From Pseudomonas fluorescens (GTDB lineage Bacteria; Pseudomonadota; Gammaproteobacteria; Pseudomonadales; Pseudomonadaceae): DNA of 64,000 nucleotides. Numbering within the stretch: the stretch's first letter is position 1; the number at the start of each line of letters is the position of its first letter. The stretch covers positions 1-64,000 of the forward strand of contig NZ_LVEJ01000010.1 of NCBI RefSeq assembly GCF_001648775.1. The letters are read 5' to 3'. A model generated the notes under the pieces. It saw nothing but the letters and a program-made list of their open reading frames with translations, did no database searches and had not been told where the DNA came from. This document shows positions 1-43,793 of the stretch, in pieces. The translations under genes were made by a program, and so were the position numbers.

Positions 1-91
1 AACCGCCAGCGGCAGCACCCGCAGCAACGGATATGCCCCCAATCCAAAAAACCCAAAACATTGACCCATAAGCAAGCCATGCGTAGCCTTG

Positions 92-283
92 CGCTTTCGA
101 GGTTCTTCGGCCCACGCCGAAGCTAAGAAGGGAACGCGGTCAATGCCGCGGCTGCCCCCGCAACTGTGAACGGTGAAATTCACTGCCACGCCACTGCCAG
201 CTCAACCCATGAGCCAGCGGGAAGGCGCAGCGAATGCCAGGCCCCGCGCCTGAACACCGTCAGCCAGGAGACCTGCCTCGTCA
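92..283 (+). promoter_or_regulatory. Cobalamin (adenosylcobalamin-type) riboswitch
   Basis: Conserved blocks of the cobalamin riboswitch are seen in order: the AAGGGAA element near 127-134, the GCCCCCGCAACTGTGA block near 154-169, and the B12 box AGCCAGGAGACCTGCC at 261-276. It lies directly 5' of cobW and the cobalt chelatase genes, the usual position for feedback control by cobalamin. Boundaries are approximate because P1 was not folded. The downstream hairpin at 363-391 is the likely expression platform. Confidence 0.93.
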
Positions 284-362
284 CAGATTCTCACTACAAC
301 CGGGCGGGGTGATCCGGTGGCGAACGCTTCCGGCGCGCACGCGCGTGGCCGGTTCTCGTCCC

Positions 363-391
363 GTATGCCCGCCGCTTGCCAAAGGGCATAC
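363..391 (+). promoter_or_regulatory. RBS-sequestering hairpin upstream of cobW
   Basis: GTATGCCC (363-370) pairs perfectly with GGGCATAC (384-391). The 3' arm and adjoining loop contain AAAGGG (381-386), the only plausible Shine-Dalgarno for the ATG at 394, 7 bases downstream. This is what a translational expression platform for the riboswitch should look like. How the aptamer competes with this stem was not modelled. Confidence 0.65.
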
Positions 392-393
392 CG

Positions 394-1467
394 ATGAAAA
401 CACTGGCCAAACTCCCTGTCACCATCGTCACCGGCTTCCTCGGCTCGGGCAAAACCACGCTGCTGCGACACATGCTCGACAACGCCCAAGGCCGTCGCAT
501 CGCGGTGATCGTCAACGAGTTTGGCGAGTTGGGCATCGACGGTGAAATCCTCAAGCAATGCACCATCGGCTGCACCGAAGAAGAAGCCACCGGCCGCGTT
601 TACGAACTGGCCAACGGCTGCCTCTGCTGCACCGTTCAGGAAGAATTCTTCCCGGTCATGCGCGAACTGGTTGCCCGTCGCGGCGACCTCGACCACATCC
701 TCATCGAAACCTCGGGCCTGGCCCTGCCGAAACCGCTGGTGCAAGCCTTCCAGTGGCCGGAAATCCGCAGCGCCTGCACCGTTGACGCGGTGATCACCGT
801 GGTCGACAGCCCAGCCGTGGCCGCTGGCACCTTCGCCGCGTTCCCGGATCAGGTCGATGCCCAGCGCAAACTCGACCCGAACCTCGATCACGAATCGCCG
901 CTGCACGAATTGTTCGCCGACCAACTGGCCAGCGCCGACCTTGTCATCCTCAACAAGGCCGACCAGACCAGCCCGGAAGACTTGGCCCGTGTACGCGCCG
1001 AAGTCGCCGAAGAACTGCCACCCGCGGTAAAAATCATCGAAGCCAGCAACGGTCGTCTGCCGCTGGACGTGCTAATCGGTCTCGGCGCCGGTTCTGAAGA
1101 GCACATCGACAGCCGCCACAGCCATCACGACCATCATCACGGTGAAAGCGATGACGACCACGATGACCACGATCACGACGCTTTCGATTCGATCTCCATC
1201 GAACTGCCGCAAGCCGACGAAAGCCTGCTGCTCGACGCGCTGACGCAATTGGTGGTCAAGCACGGCATCCTGCGTGTCAAAGGCTTCGCGGCGATCCCGA
1301 ACAAGCCAATGCGTCTGCTGATCCAGGGCGTGGGCACGCGTTTCGACAAGCACTTCGACCGTCAATGGGGCGCCGATGAAGCGCGCGTGACGCGTCTGGT
1401 GTTGATCGGTCAGGAACTCGATGCGGCGCAACTCGAAGCGCAACTGCGCGCTGCGCTCAGCGTTTAA
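394..1467 (+). CDS. cobW: CobW, zinc/cobalt-related G3E GTPase
   Basis: A 357-residue P-loop GTPase of the G3E (COG0523) family, predicted to deliver metal during cobalamin synthesis. Walker A GFLGSGKTT lies at residues 14-22 and the CLCC metal-binding motif at 76-79. A His/Asp-rich loop near 238-262 (HSHHDHHHGESDDDHDDHDHD region) is typical of metal-loading members. The ATG at 394 is preferred over an upstream in-frame TTG at 376, because AAAGGG (381-386) is correctly spaced and the TTG has none. It is first in the riboswitch-controlled operon, with cobN starting 3 bases after its stop. In this family the metal could be Co or Zn; the cobN linkage favours a cobalamin role. Confidence 0.95.
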   Translation: MKTLAKLPVTIVTGFLGSGKTTLLRHMLDNAQGRRIAVIVNEFGELGIDGEILKQCTIGCTEEEATGRVYELANGCLCCTVQEEFFPVMRELVARRGDLDHILIETSGLALPKPLVQAFQWPEIRSACTVDAVITVVDSPAVAAGTFAAFPDQVDAQRKLDPNLDHESPLHELFADQLASADLVILNKADQTSPEDLARVRAEVAEELPPAVKIIEASNGRLPLDVLIGLGAGSEEHIDSRHSHHDHHHGESDDDHDDHDHDAFDSISIELPQADESLLLDALTQLVVKHGILRVKGFAAIPNKPMRLLIQGVGTRFDKHFDRQWGADEARVTRLVLIGQELDAAQLEAQLRAALSV

Positions 1468-5533: not shown

Positions 5534-6538
5534 ATGACCGACACCCCGCATTTCCCGCTCTCCGCCGTGGTTGGCGCCGATGACCTGAAACTCGCACTGT
5601 GCCTCACCGCCATCGACCCGAAAATCGGCGGCGTACTCATCGAAGGCCCGCGCGGCATGGCCAAATCCACCTTGGCTCGCGGTTTGGCCGACCTGCTCGC
5701 CAGCGGCCAATTCGTCACCTTGCCGCTGGGCGCCACCGAAGAACGTCTGGTCGGCACCCTCGACCTCGACGCCGCGCTCAGTGCCGGGCGCGCGCAATTT
5801 TCGCCTGGCGTGCTGGCCAAGGCCGACGGCGGCGTGCTCTATGTCGATGAGGTCAACCTGCTGCCGGATCACCTCGTCGATCTGCTGCTCGACGTCGCCG
5901 CCAGCGGCACCAACCTGATCGAGCGCGATGGTATCTCCCATCGGCATTCGGCGCGGTTCGTGCTGATCGGCACGATGAACCCGGAAGAGGGCGAGTTGCG
6001 CCCACAATTGCTCGACCGTTTTGGTTTGAACGTCGCCCTCAGTGGCCACACGGCGCCGACCGAGCGCGGGCAGATCATTCGCCGGCGACTGGATTTCGAC
6101 AGCGACCCGCAAGGGTTTTGCGCGCAGTGGGAAACACAGCAAAAAGCGTTGCGCGAACGTTGCGAAAGCGCCCGCGAAGCCTTGGCCGATATACCGCTGG
6201 ACGATGTCGCCCTGGCGCAGATTACCGAGCGTTGCTTCGCTGCTGGCGTCGATGGCTTGCGCGCCGATCTGGTGTGGTTGCGCGCCGCTCGGGCACATGC
6301 TGCATGGCGCGCTGCTGAGGCTATTGAAGAACAGGATATCGACGCGGTCGCTGAATTCGCCTTGCGCCATCGTCGTCGCGAACAGCCCGCATCCAGCCCA
6401 CAACAACCGCCGGCGCAAGCGCCGAGCAACGCGCAGACCGAGCCGGGCGAAGGGCAGGGCCAATGGGGCGACATGCCGGCCCCGGCACTCGCCACCGGCG
6501 CGCGCCGTGAAGTGCCGAGCTGGCCAAAAAAGCCTTAG
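5534..6538 (+). CDS. chlI: ChlI-type AAA+ chelatase subunit (unshifted product)
   Basis: A 334-residue AAA+ ATPase like magnesium-chelatase subunit I, here the probable small subunit of the CobN cobaltochelatase. Walker A GPRGMAKST is at residues 38-46 and Walker B VLYVDEVN near 101-108. The C-terminus enters a Pro/Gln-rich linker typical of ChlD proteins and stops right after the slippery codons AAA AAG CCT TAG. The missing partner domain lies in the -1 frame directly downstream, so this looks like the termination product of a frameshifting gene rather than an independent chlI. It is the third gene of the riboswitch operon; no separate cobS or cobT is visible. Confidence 0.88.
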   Translation: MTDTPHFPLSAVVGADDLKLALCLTAIDPKIGGVLIEGPRGMAKSTLARGLADLLASGQFVTLPLGATEERLVGTLDLDAALSAGRAQFSPGVLAKADGGVLYVDEVNLLPDHLVDLLLDVAASGTNLIERDGISHRHSARFVLIGTMNPEEGELRPQLLDRFGLNVALSGHTAPTERGQIIRRRLDFDSDPQGFCAQWETQQKALRERCESAREALADIPLDDVALAQITERCFAAGVDGLRADLVWLRAARAHAAWRAAEAIEEQDIDAVAEFALRHRRREQPASSPQQPPAQAPSNAQTEPGEGQGQWGDMPAPALATGARREVPSWPKKP

Positions 6539-7203
6539 GCATTCGCCCCCGATCCGACGCGGGGGCGAATGCCAGACCCCGCGCCGGTCGGCTCGACAAC
6601 GGACGTCAGGGCAAGCGCCATGCCGCCCGCAGCGGTACGGTGAACTGGCCGGGAACGCTGCTCAATGGCCGCCCGCAAAGCCGTGAGGATCTGCTGTTTG
6701 CGCAACGCACGCGCACCTCGCATGAGTTGTGGCTGGTGATCGTCGATGCCTCGGCGTCTACCCGTCGCCATCAGGCCTTGAGCGATGCCAAAGGTCTGCT
6801 TGCGCAATTGTTCGATGACGCCTACCGCCAGCGTGCGCGGTTGGCGTTGTTGACCGCCAGCGGTTCTGCGCCGAAATGGCAGGTGCAGGGGTTGAAGGCC
6901 TCCAGCGGCTTGCGCGTGTGGCTGGATACACTGGGCGCGGGCGGCGGCACTCCGTTGCTGGCGGCGTTAACCGAGGCGCAACAATGGCTGACGCGGCGGC
7001 GCAAGCGCTTTCCCGCCGAGCAGCAGCGTTTGCTGGTGGTGACGGATGGACGCTTGAAAGACGGGTGCGGATTGCCGGCGCTGGGGTGTCCGGGGCTGTT
7101 GATCGATATCGAACGTGGACCGATTCGGCTTGGTCGGGCGCGGGATCTGGCGGCGGCGTTGGATGCCGAGTATCGACATATCGATGAACTGATTTCGATC
7201 TGA
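5534..7203 (+). CDS. chlD: ChlD-type chelatase subunit made by -1 frameshift (AAA+ plus VWA)
   Basis: Joined product: 5534-6532 in frame, then a -1 shift, continuing from 6532 to 7203, about 556 residues. The first 333 residues are the AAA+ domain. The shifted part supplies a basic Arg/Gly/Pro linker and a von Willebrand factor A domain with MIDAS elements DASAS, GGGTP and VVTDGR. AAA+, Pro-rich linker and VWA is exactly the ChlD/BchD order. The -1 frame has no ATG between its upstream stop at 6508 and the domain; the first GTG (6640) would cut off part of the linker. ChlD genes with programmed frameshifting that give both subunits are described in the literature (work by Antonov and colleagues); the assignment here is inferred from sequence. 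Confidence 0.82.
6526..6573 (+). promoter_or_regulatory. Programmed -1 ribosomal frameshift signal
   Basis: The slippery heptamer A AAA AAG at 6526-6532 is in the correct phase: the zero-frame codons are CCA AAA AAG CCT TAG. A 5-base spacer (6533-6537) leads to a perfect 14-bp stem, 6538-6551 paired with 6560-6573, with an 8-base loop. Heptamer, spacer and stem all match classical -1 frameshift cassettes such as dnaX. The stop of the zero frame is 4 bases past the heptamer. No upstream Shine-Dalgarno-like stimulator is obvious. Confidence 0.88.
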
Positions 7204-7228
7204 CGGTGCCGGCGATTGATCGGCCGTC

Positions 7229-7304
7229 TTCGCGAGCAGGCTCGCTCCCACAATGGAATCGGGATTCGACGCAAACTCCCTGTGGGAGCGAGCTTGCTCG
7301 CGAA
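7229..7304. repeat. REPIN
   Basis: Two inverted REP arms, 7229-7252 (TTCGCGAGCAGGCTCGCTCC...) and 7281-7304 (TGTGGGAGCGAGCTTGCTCG...), lie between the chelatase gene and the phospholipase D-like gene. The arms differ at the central dinucleotide (AG against TT). Confidence 0.93.
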
Positions 7305-7389
7305 GGCATCGACTCGGTCTCCAAGCCAAACAACCAAAACCCGCATCCCTGCTCTATGCTGCACCCAGCCCAATCACAAGGAGTGAGCG

Positions 7390-38505: not shown

Positions 38506-38535
38506 AACCCCCGGTCGGGAAGCCGACCGGGGGTT
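38506..38535 (-). terminator. Intrinsic terminator in the DAHP synthase leader (attenuator)
   Basis: A perfect 11-bp GC-rich stem, CCCCCGGTCGG (38508-38518) with CCGACCGGGGG (38523-38533), and a 4-base loop. On the minus strand it is followed by TTTTGTTTTTT. It sits 48 bases after the leader peptide stop and about 260 bases before the DAHP synthase. A weaker upstream hairpin GGCGCCC/GGGTCGCC lies between leader and terminator and could take part in switching. Confidence 0.88.
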
Positions 38536-38582
38536 GAGAAACTCTCTGGTGGCGACCCGTTTACATGGGCGCCGTGTGGGTA

Positions 38583-38711
38583 TCAGGCGCGCCAGTGGCT
38601 AAACCAATACCCAAAATAAAAGCTGACCGGAGCACATACGTCAGTCGCCCGGGCAGCCGAAACCGAGCGCAGGGCGCTGGCGGTACGTAGCTGTGAAAGG
38701 GCGTTGAGCAT
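38583..38711 (-). CDS. Attenuator leader peptide rich in Phe/Tyr/Trp
   Basis: A 42-residue ORF with a strong RBS (GGAGA six bases before ATG). Near the C-terminus it reads SFYFGYWFSHWRA and stops: three Phe, two Tyr and two Trp within ten residues. The intrinsic terminator follows directly, then the DAHP synthase. Ribosome stalling at uncharged aromatic tRNAs would favour read-through, the classical attenuation logic. All three aromatic amino acids are represented, so the sequence does not identify a single effector. Confidence 0.85.
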   Translation of the reverse strand: MLNALSQLRTASALRSVSAARATDVCAPVSFYFGYWFSHWRA

Positions 38712-43314: not shown

Positions 43315-43390
<76 letters not shown>

Positions 43391-43437
43391 AGTTTAAAAC
43401 GCGTTTGTTGTTGTGCTACTGATAGCAAACGTTTTGA

Positions 43438-43511
43438 GGCCGAGTAGCAAAATGGTTATGCAGTGGATTGCAAATCCACCTACGCCGGTTCGATTCCGAC
43501 CTCGGCCTCCA
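43438..43511 (+). tRNA. tRNA-Cys (GCA)
   Basis: A 74-base cloverleaf with acceptor GGCCGAG/CTCGGCC, anticodon loop ATTGCAAAT (GCA), T-loop TTCGATT and an encoded CCA end. It lies 47 bases after tRNA-Gly. Confidence 0.98.
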
Positions 43512-43520
43512 CTATAAACA

Positions 43521-43554
43521 AGCTCCGTAGATCCATGATTTACGGAGCTTTTTT
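43521..43554 (+). terminator. Terminator after tRNA-Cys
   Basis: AGCTCCGTA (43521-43529) pairs with TACGGAGCT (43541-43549), followed by TTTTTT. It separates tRNA-Gly/Cys from tRNA-Leu. Confidence 0.9.
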
Positions 43555-43706
43555 ATTTGCAGTGCGCTGCAAGATTTAGTCTTGAAAACGGCCATTGCGA
43601 ACTTGCTTCACCGGGAACGGATGTATATATTTCCCGCTCGGCTGTTGAAGCCTTGATCCTGTCAGGATCGCCACTCAGCTGCCGGACAGAGCAACACCGC
43701 GCTACC

Positions 43707-43793
43707 GCCCGAATGGCGAAACTGGTAGACGCATGGGACTTAAAATCCCCCGCTCGTAAGGGCGTGCCGGTTCGATTCCGGCTTCGGGCACCA
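43707..43793 (+). tRNA. tRNA-Leu (TAA)
   Basis: An 87-base class II tRNA with acceptor GCCCGAA/TTCGGGC, anticodon loop CTTAAAA (TAA), a long variable arm CCGCTCGTAAGGGCG, T-loop TTCGATT and an encoded CCA end. Confidence 0.98.

Follow-up and report, generated by a model that had tools for sequence, protein, structure and literature searches.

Programmed −1 frameshifting in a Pseudomonas fluorescens chlD gene probably yields the small and medium subunits of the CobN cobaltochelatase

The stretch of Pseudomonas fluorescens DNA analysed here (64,000 nucleotides, referred to below as the window) carries, downstream of cobN, a frame for a ChlI-like AAA+ protein that ends in TAG, and a neighbouring −1 frame that encodes a linker and a VWA domain. 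The question raised by this locus is whether these frames are two genes, one damaged gene, or a single chlD gene that is read in two ways. We consider it very probable that both ATPase-side subunits of the CobN cobaltochelatase come from chlD, by a −1 slip of the ribosome at A_AAA_AAG. Judged from the sequence, programmed −1 frameshifting that would give rise to a small and a medium cobaltochelatase subunit is well supported; slippage would take place in this host with some efficiency of its own, and both products would act with CobN. The observations that bear on this reading are the signal itself, its conservation, the selection on the RNA, the riboswitch–cobW–cobN context, and the lack of other recognisable genes for a small or medium subunit.

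The features of the locus are collected in Table 1. Because a cobalamin riboswitch sits upstream, the arrangement suggests that the cobW–cobN–chlD cluster is controlled by B12. The Pfam domains recognised in chlD are AAA_lid_2, AAA_5 and Mg_chelatase in the first frame and VWA_2 in the second. Both halves of the gene match TIGR02442 ('putative cobaltochelatase'), one as its N part and the other as its C part; each half taken singly stays below the whole-protein cut-off of this model, and the TIGR02030 match to the zero frame is likewise below cut-off. By sequence match, the zero-frame product resembles the ChlI/BchI structures 6l8d, 8osf and 1g8p, and the VWA half resembles the 60 kDa subunit of Mg-chelatase (structure 2x31). 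Just 3′ of chlD, at 7228–7305, there is an inverted repeat with 25-nt arms that are 96% complementary and lie 28 nt apart, which resembles a Pseudomonas REP pair. Elsewhere, the window contains the Pseudomonas sRNA P15 and three tRNA genes (38508–38625, − strand; 43315–43790, + strand).

Table 1. Coordinates of the features of the chlD locus in the window, with the evidence for each
Feature	Position	Strand	Evidence or remark
Cobalamin riboswitch aptamer (RF00174)	83–294	+	98.6 bits against a gathering threshold of 31.5; precedes cobW–cobN–chlD
cobW	376–1467	+	TIGR02475, 530.3 bits, above cut-off; PF02492, PF07683
cobN, aerobic cobaltochelatase large subunit, 1282 aa	1471–5319	+	TIGR02257, 1738.6 bits, above cut-off; PF02514
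chlD, whole gene in question	5534–7203	+	Same strand as cobW and cobN
chlD zero frame: ChlI-like AAA+, 334 aa, from ATG at 5534 to TAG	5534–6538	+	Open reading frame; TIGR02030 and N part of TIGR02442
Slippery heptamer A_AAA_AAG, in −1 frameshift phase	6526–6532	+	Sequence; conserved in relatives
Zero-frame stop TAG, one codon past the heptamer	6536–6538	+	Sequence; distance conserved
Putative stimulatory hairpin, arms 6538–6551 and 6560–6573, loop 6552–6559	6538–6573	+	Pair counts, synonymous constraint
chlD −1 frame: linker and VWA with MIDAS	6532–7203	+	PF13519 (VWA_2); C part of TIGR02442; predicted shifted product 556 aa

The zero frame of the window terminates as CCA AAA AAG CCT TAG, with the heptamer A_AAA_AAG in phase. 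The sequence-only reading had placed the TAG right after a correctly phased heptamer; the phase and the stop were confirmed, but "right after" proved loose, since the single codon CCT intervenes. The perfect 14-bp stem that it had described five bases past the heptamer was found as such, with 100% complementarity, a loop of 8 nt and a spacer of 5 nt, and the first base of the stem (6538) is the G of the TAG. No other perfect hairpin in the 64 kb reaches 14 bp with a loop of 3–12 nt, and ten dinucleotide shuffles of the same 64 kb gave zero perfect hairpins, even at 12 bp. The string AAAAAAG occurs three times on the + strand of the window. A search with Rfam 15 at gathering thresholds matched nothing at the frameshift signal. 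A second copy of the signal had been suspected in many genomes, including this one, from the presence of two matches to our signal model; for the window this was discarded, as its second match is that same stem read on the opposite strand. From the slip onwards, the −1 frame stays open up to the stop at 7203 and runs for 223 codons beyond the two lysines, in agreement with the products anticipated earlier, one of 334 residues upon termination and one of about 556 residues after a shift. It also enters the linker and the VWA domain without an ATG, as had been claimed: in the window none precedes the MIDAS, and DASAS, T and D, which we take to be the MIDAS residues, are all present.

Relatives were drawn from one scan of named genomes, of which the best 80 loci were kept, and from a 398-genome sample of the genus that contributed 30 loci (L089 being the window). 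The nearest relatives in the named genomes are Pseudomonas. Four of the 80 named loci (L052, L069, L071 and L074) lacked the C half and were dropped, leaving 106 loci with both halves, the window included; L001–L003 and L089 are the window's own copy, and L010 and L106, which are identical over 1500 nt, were both counted. At the junction, 95 of the 106 listed loci show a −1 shift, eight are fused in one frame and three are odd, and 94 of the 95 are distinct over 1500 nt. The heptamer of these 95 is A_AAA_AAG in 90 cases and A_AAA_AAA in five (three Caballeronia, one Paraburkholderia and one Cupriavidus). A zero-frame stop lies within one codon of it in every one of the 95 (TAG in 69, TGA in 23 and TAA in 3), exactly one codon after it in 93 and directly after it in two. 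In these two, L022 and L108, the spacer is altered so that the usual stop is lost and another stands directly after AAG; termination has therefore been kept by another route. The combination of −1 junction, heptamer and immediate stop reaches down to 55% identity of the ChlI half and is found in Pseudomonas, Caballeronia, Paraburkholderia and Cupriavidus. Only five A, not six, are present in two of the odd loci, L104 and L111, whose frame is not rescued by −1 slippage; in L111 the reading frame of this gene breaks at additional points, as happens in assemblies rich in errors, and the five-A run there is likely a sequencing error. The third, L114, is normal in heptamer, stop and stem and has an assembly gap upstream.

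Retention of the heptamer, spacer and stem in relatives had been put forward as one way to check the proposal, and a heptamer or stem that is not conserved as something that would speak against it. The proposal held up: 95 of the 106 listed loci keep a −1 slip heptamer with an immediate zero-frame stop, and across the genus 368 of the 398 genomes match the signal model at E ≤ 0.01 and 373 have the VWA half. Five genomes have the VWA half and no match to the model; four of them (G027, G148, G287 and G396) carry A_AAA_AAG and a stop one codon later, followed by a different downstream sequence, and in G076 the available sequence ends within the ChlI half, probably at a contig end. CobN lies upstream and on the same strand in 72 of the best 80 named loci, within 1.5 kb in 65 and at 1.8–2.7 kb in seven. 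About 1.8–2.7 kb separates the CobN match from chlD in Pseudomonas loci L057, L058, L059, L061, L065, L068 and L071, which is room for an inserted gene.

Evidence on the hairpin came from base pairing, synonymous variation and folding energy. Collapsing identical 57-nt rows left 71 (set A1); set A2 and the signal model consist of 65 gapless rows, without the divergent L051, L053, L055, L066, L072 and L079. Over the 65 rows, 94.3% of the cells of the window stem are paired, and the pairing falls to 32–54% when the partner is displaced by 1 to 3 columns. Changes on both sides were counted in 26 cells, a number reached in 0 of 500 shuffles; they may be few events, because 23 of the 26 fall at one pair (columns 22/47: U-A in 32 rows, C-G in 23 and U-G in 10). 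Four stem pairs show a double change, as did 2 of 500 shuffles, and the 11 further pair types in the stem are not exceptional (reached in 31 of 500 shuffles). With the divergent six included (71 rows), 90.0% of the cells are paired and 31 are changed on both sides. To the clearest covarying pair, an Ile codon (ATT/ATC) contributes its third base and an Asn/Asp codon (AAT/GAT) its first, so that a silent Ile change accompanies an Asn/Asp replacement and the pairing is kept. The stem is shortened in L053 and L055 and formed by different arms in L066 and L072, and all of these are predicted to fold at nearly the same place.

The sequence of the stem is well conserved in most of the aligned Pseudomonas rows. 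In the test of synonymous variation, for which 87 fused codon sequences were left after further drops, the 16 codons that span the slip site and the stem gave a ratio of 0.475 to the variation expected, the lowest of 540 segments. The energy test, with 300 synonymous recodings and 95 loci, gave a median z of −1.9, and the window stood at 3 of 300; 18 of the 95 loci were at 3 or fewer of 300, which is weaker than expected. In 13 of the 95, at least 75 of the 300 recodings were at least as stable, and nine of these 13 have a similar interrupted stem. These results point to a downstream stimulatory structure under selection, to which the energy test lends uneven support.

The same two frames could be accounted for in other ways. 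The VWA protein might be started separately after the TAG, by coupling or reinitiation, with the A-run being incidental. The window does have a GTG at 6640 in the −1 frame, a start codon occupies this site in 34 of 90 loci and another lies six codons past it in 47 of 90, and some of the constructs described by Antonov et al. (2013; PMC3711429) gave downstream initiation beside frameshifting. However, no start codon is universal among the 90 loci, which were scanned as far as the MIDAS pattern in the 86 where it was located and over 70 codons in the rest. The commonest one, present in 72 of 90, stands three codons ahead of the MIDAS, and a start there would truncate the VWA fold; any ATG of the −1 frame before the MIDAS occurs in only 10 of 90, and in 79 of 90 no start codon has a Shine-Dalgarno-like motif in front of it. 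A separate start would also leave unexplained the in-phase heptamer, the immediate stop and the constrained stem. An independent start for the VWA half thus finds little support, and we regard it as very unlikely.

Slippage during transcription of the A-run, which would give mRNAs one base longer or shorter, has in its favour the six-base run itself and the fact that longer A-runs can slip; nevertheless, the runs reported to do so are mostly of eight or more (PMC3711429), whereas the run here has only six A, or seven in some few loci, and the G after it is the same in 71 of 71 aligned rows, and the conserved hairpin at a spacing of 5 nt fits ribosomal slippage. We give this explanation a very slight chance. 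Two open reading frames in neighbouring frames, seen alone, look like a gene broken by a frameshift mutation or a sequencing error, and L104 and L111 illustrate what a missing base does, but an identical −1 junction in 95 of the 106 listed loci, 94 of the 95 being distinct, deprives this idea of virtually all probability. A role of the hairpin as a terminator of transcription between two genes is also extremely improbable: its strength and high G+C content would suit one, but no T-run follows the stem, a terminator scan had no match there on the + strand, and the hairpin lies inside the −1 coding frame. Ribosomal −1 slippage within a single chlD gene is therefore the reading that we retain.

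The sequence-only reading had seen neither cobS/cobT nor a separate chlI/chlD beside cobN, and this held throughout the genome. CobS and CobT (TIGR01650 and TIGR01651) had no match anywhere in it, and the ChlI query gave one strong match, with the next at E = 7e-8. The five other TIGR02442 matches belong to other families, namely three AAA_3 (MoxR-type) ATPases, a YfbK_C/VWA protein and a YifB-family protein, the last of which is above its NCBIfam cut-off. Given the absence of CobS and CobT and the single strong ChlI match, no source of a small subunit other than the frameshift is evident.

In the genus sample, CobN was searched in the 25 genomes without the VWA half, the five without a model match, the window's own genome and eight more. 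Sixteen of the 25 had no CobN match, seven had a longer CobN open frame of 1408–1491 codons (G060, G082, G179, G184, G241, G259 and G316), and two had an ordinary CobN frame. CobS- and CobT-like genes are present in four of the seven genomes with a longer CobN, and in the two with an ordinary CobN the match ends 135 or 773 bases from the contig edge, on the side where chlD is expected. Genomes of this sample that lack chlD therefore also lack CobN, have it replaced, or have a contig break. We also considered CobS as a mutually exclusive substitute for the frameshifted chlD, which is only partly true: a CobS-like gene at E ≤ 1e-90 was found in 7 of the 25 genomes without the VWA half and also in 10 of the 373 with it, none of them above the curated cut-off. 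Frameshifted chlD and a CobS-like gene at this threshold occur together in G015, G038, G207, G275, G366 and others. The CobS-like genes in such genomes may serve another function, because three of the seven genomes that have one and lack the VWA half (G041, G042 and G221) have no CobN match.

Outside Pseudomonas, chlD is fused in one frame in eight listed loci (L075–L078, L080, L081, L086 and L087). Loci L177 and L178 were entered alongside these eight. A scan for 27 heptamer types in the linkers of the eight fused genes revealed no shared in-phase slip site, and each of the eight genomes has one strong ChlI-like match. Three have strong CobS and CobT matches, which are below the curated cut-offs. 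The remaining five genomes (two Neptuniibacter, a Marinomonas, a Psychromonas and a MAG) all have CobN, which in the Marinomonas is in two separate pieces. The searches of these five gave no CobT match, and nothing better than E = 1e-8 for CobS or than E = 1e-9 for a second ChlI; in one Neptuniibacter and in the Psychromonas, the in-frame chlD is part of an apparent B12 operon with cobW and cobN. In these five genomes, either the small subunit is an unrecognised ATPase or one chain suffices. Two products may thus not be obligatory for a cobaltochelatase, because five genomes with CobN have an in-frame chlD and no clear gene for a small subunit. The frameshift in the window is itself untouched by these cases. 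In the window's host, both proteins would be made, in a ratio set at the slip, and both may be needed, although this last point is weakened by the five in-frame genomes.

A paper by Antonov from 2020 is said to deal with the frameshifted chlD (fs-chlD) of the aerobic Co-chelatase. The earlier statement that such genes are reported in the literature is borne out by two sources that cover Pseudomonas: Antonov et al. (2013; PMC3711429), who list magnesium chelatase fs-genes in Pseudomonas, Burkholderia, Delftia, Herpetosiphon, Methanocaldococcus and Methanococcus, and the review by Atkins et al. (2016; PMC5009743). Frameshifting in chlD of Pseudomonas is already known, and the gene in the window is a member of a published family; the novelty of the case is lowered because the literature names this genus. 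The window gene shows the traits of an fs-chlD: adjacent ChlI-like and VWA frames related by a −1 shift, a phased A-rich heptamer and a close stop, with cobN present and a separate small-subunit gene absent. It does not belong to the CobS/CobT type of aerobic cobaltochelatase, as its genome has neither gene. In E. coli, frameshifting amounted to 63, 40 and 10% for three cassettes of the magnesium chelatase cluster; the reported cassettes have A-runs of 11, 9 and 7, and the account of them in that paper names no Pseudomonas A_AAA_AAG cassette among them (PMC3711429). The review by Atkins et al. (2016; PMC5009743) prints the stem-loop of the P. protegens magnesium chelatase gene with its A_AAA_AAR site, and the stem in the window is of the same sequence class. 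In the scheme of Kuznetsov et al. (2022; PMC9227772), which models small plus medium subunits, chlD makes both for CobN (stage 8), and we saw no departure of the window gene from the scheme as given there.

Slippage on A_AAA_AAG before a stem is an established mode in E. coli dnaX, for which tRNA re-pairing as against entry into the new frame has been discussed (PMC5009743). Both dnaX and chlD have this heptamer, a downstream hairpin and two proteins that share their N-terminal part (PMC3711429). They differ in that the shift leads to the short product in dnaX and to the long product in chlD, and in that dnaX has an upstream Shine-Dalgarno-like stimulator (PMC3711429), whereas in chlD a 4-nt Shine-Dalgarno-like match occupies the corresponding place in 8 of 90 loci, and none does so in the window.

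The mechanism that we propose for the window is as follows. Ribosomes that remain in frame would stop at the TAG and release the ChlI-like AAA+ small subunit of 334 residues. At A_AAA_AAG some would slip back one base, presumably by lysyl-tRNA slippage as in E. coli dnaX and with the aid of the 14-bp hairpin 5 nt downstream; these would read on through the linker and the VWA domain to give the ChlD medium subunit of 556 residues. Since the two products have their AAA+ module in common, the composition of the ring should be set by how often ribosomes slip, and with it the I:D ratio of the AAA+ assembly that would drive the insertion of Co by CobN. A regulatory role for the slip frequency and a triplex were both raised by Atkins et al. 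(2016; PMC5009743). As regards the triplex, the longest purine runs at the position of the 3′ arm, taken at a fixed offset, are of 3 to 6 nt among 22 distinct arms. That the slip frequency is regulated, for instance by divalent cations or in concert with the upstream cobalamin riboswitch, with the I:D ratio and cobalt insertion responding to metal or B12, seems to us unlikely.

The genomes with an in-frame chlD pose the question of what a minimal cobaltochelatase is. Its conservation makes the chlD signal well suited as a model of −1 frameshifting in genes other than dnaX. For the bacterium, a single gene would supply two subunits to one step in the aerobic synthesis of B12, which would also explain the annotation of such a gene as two.
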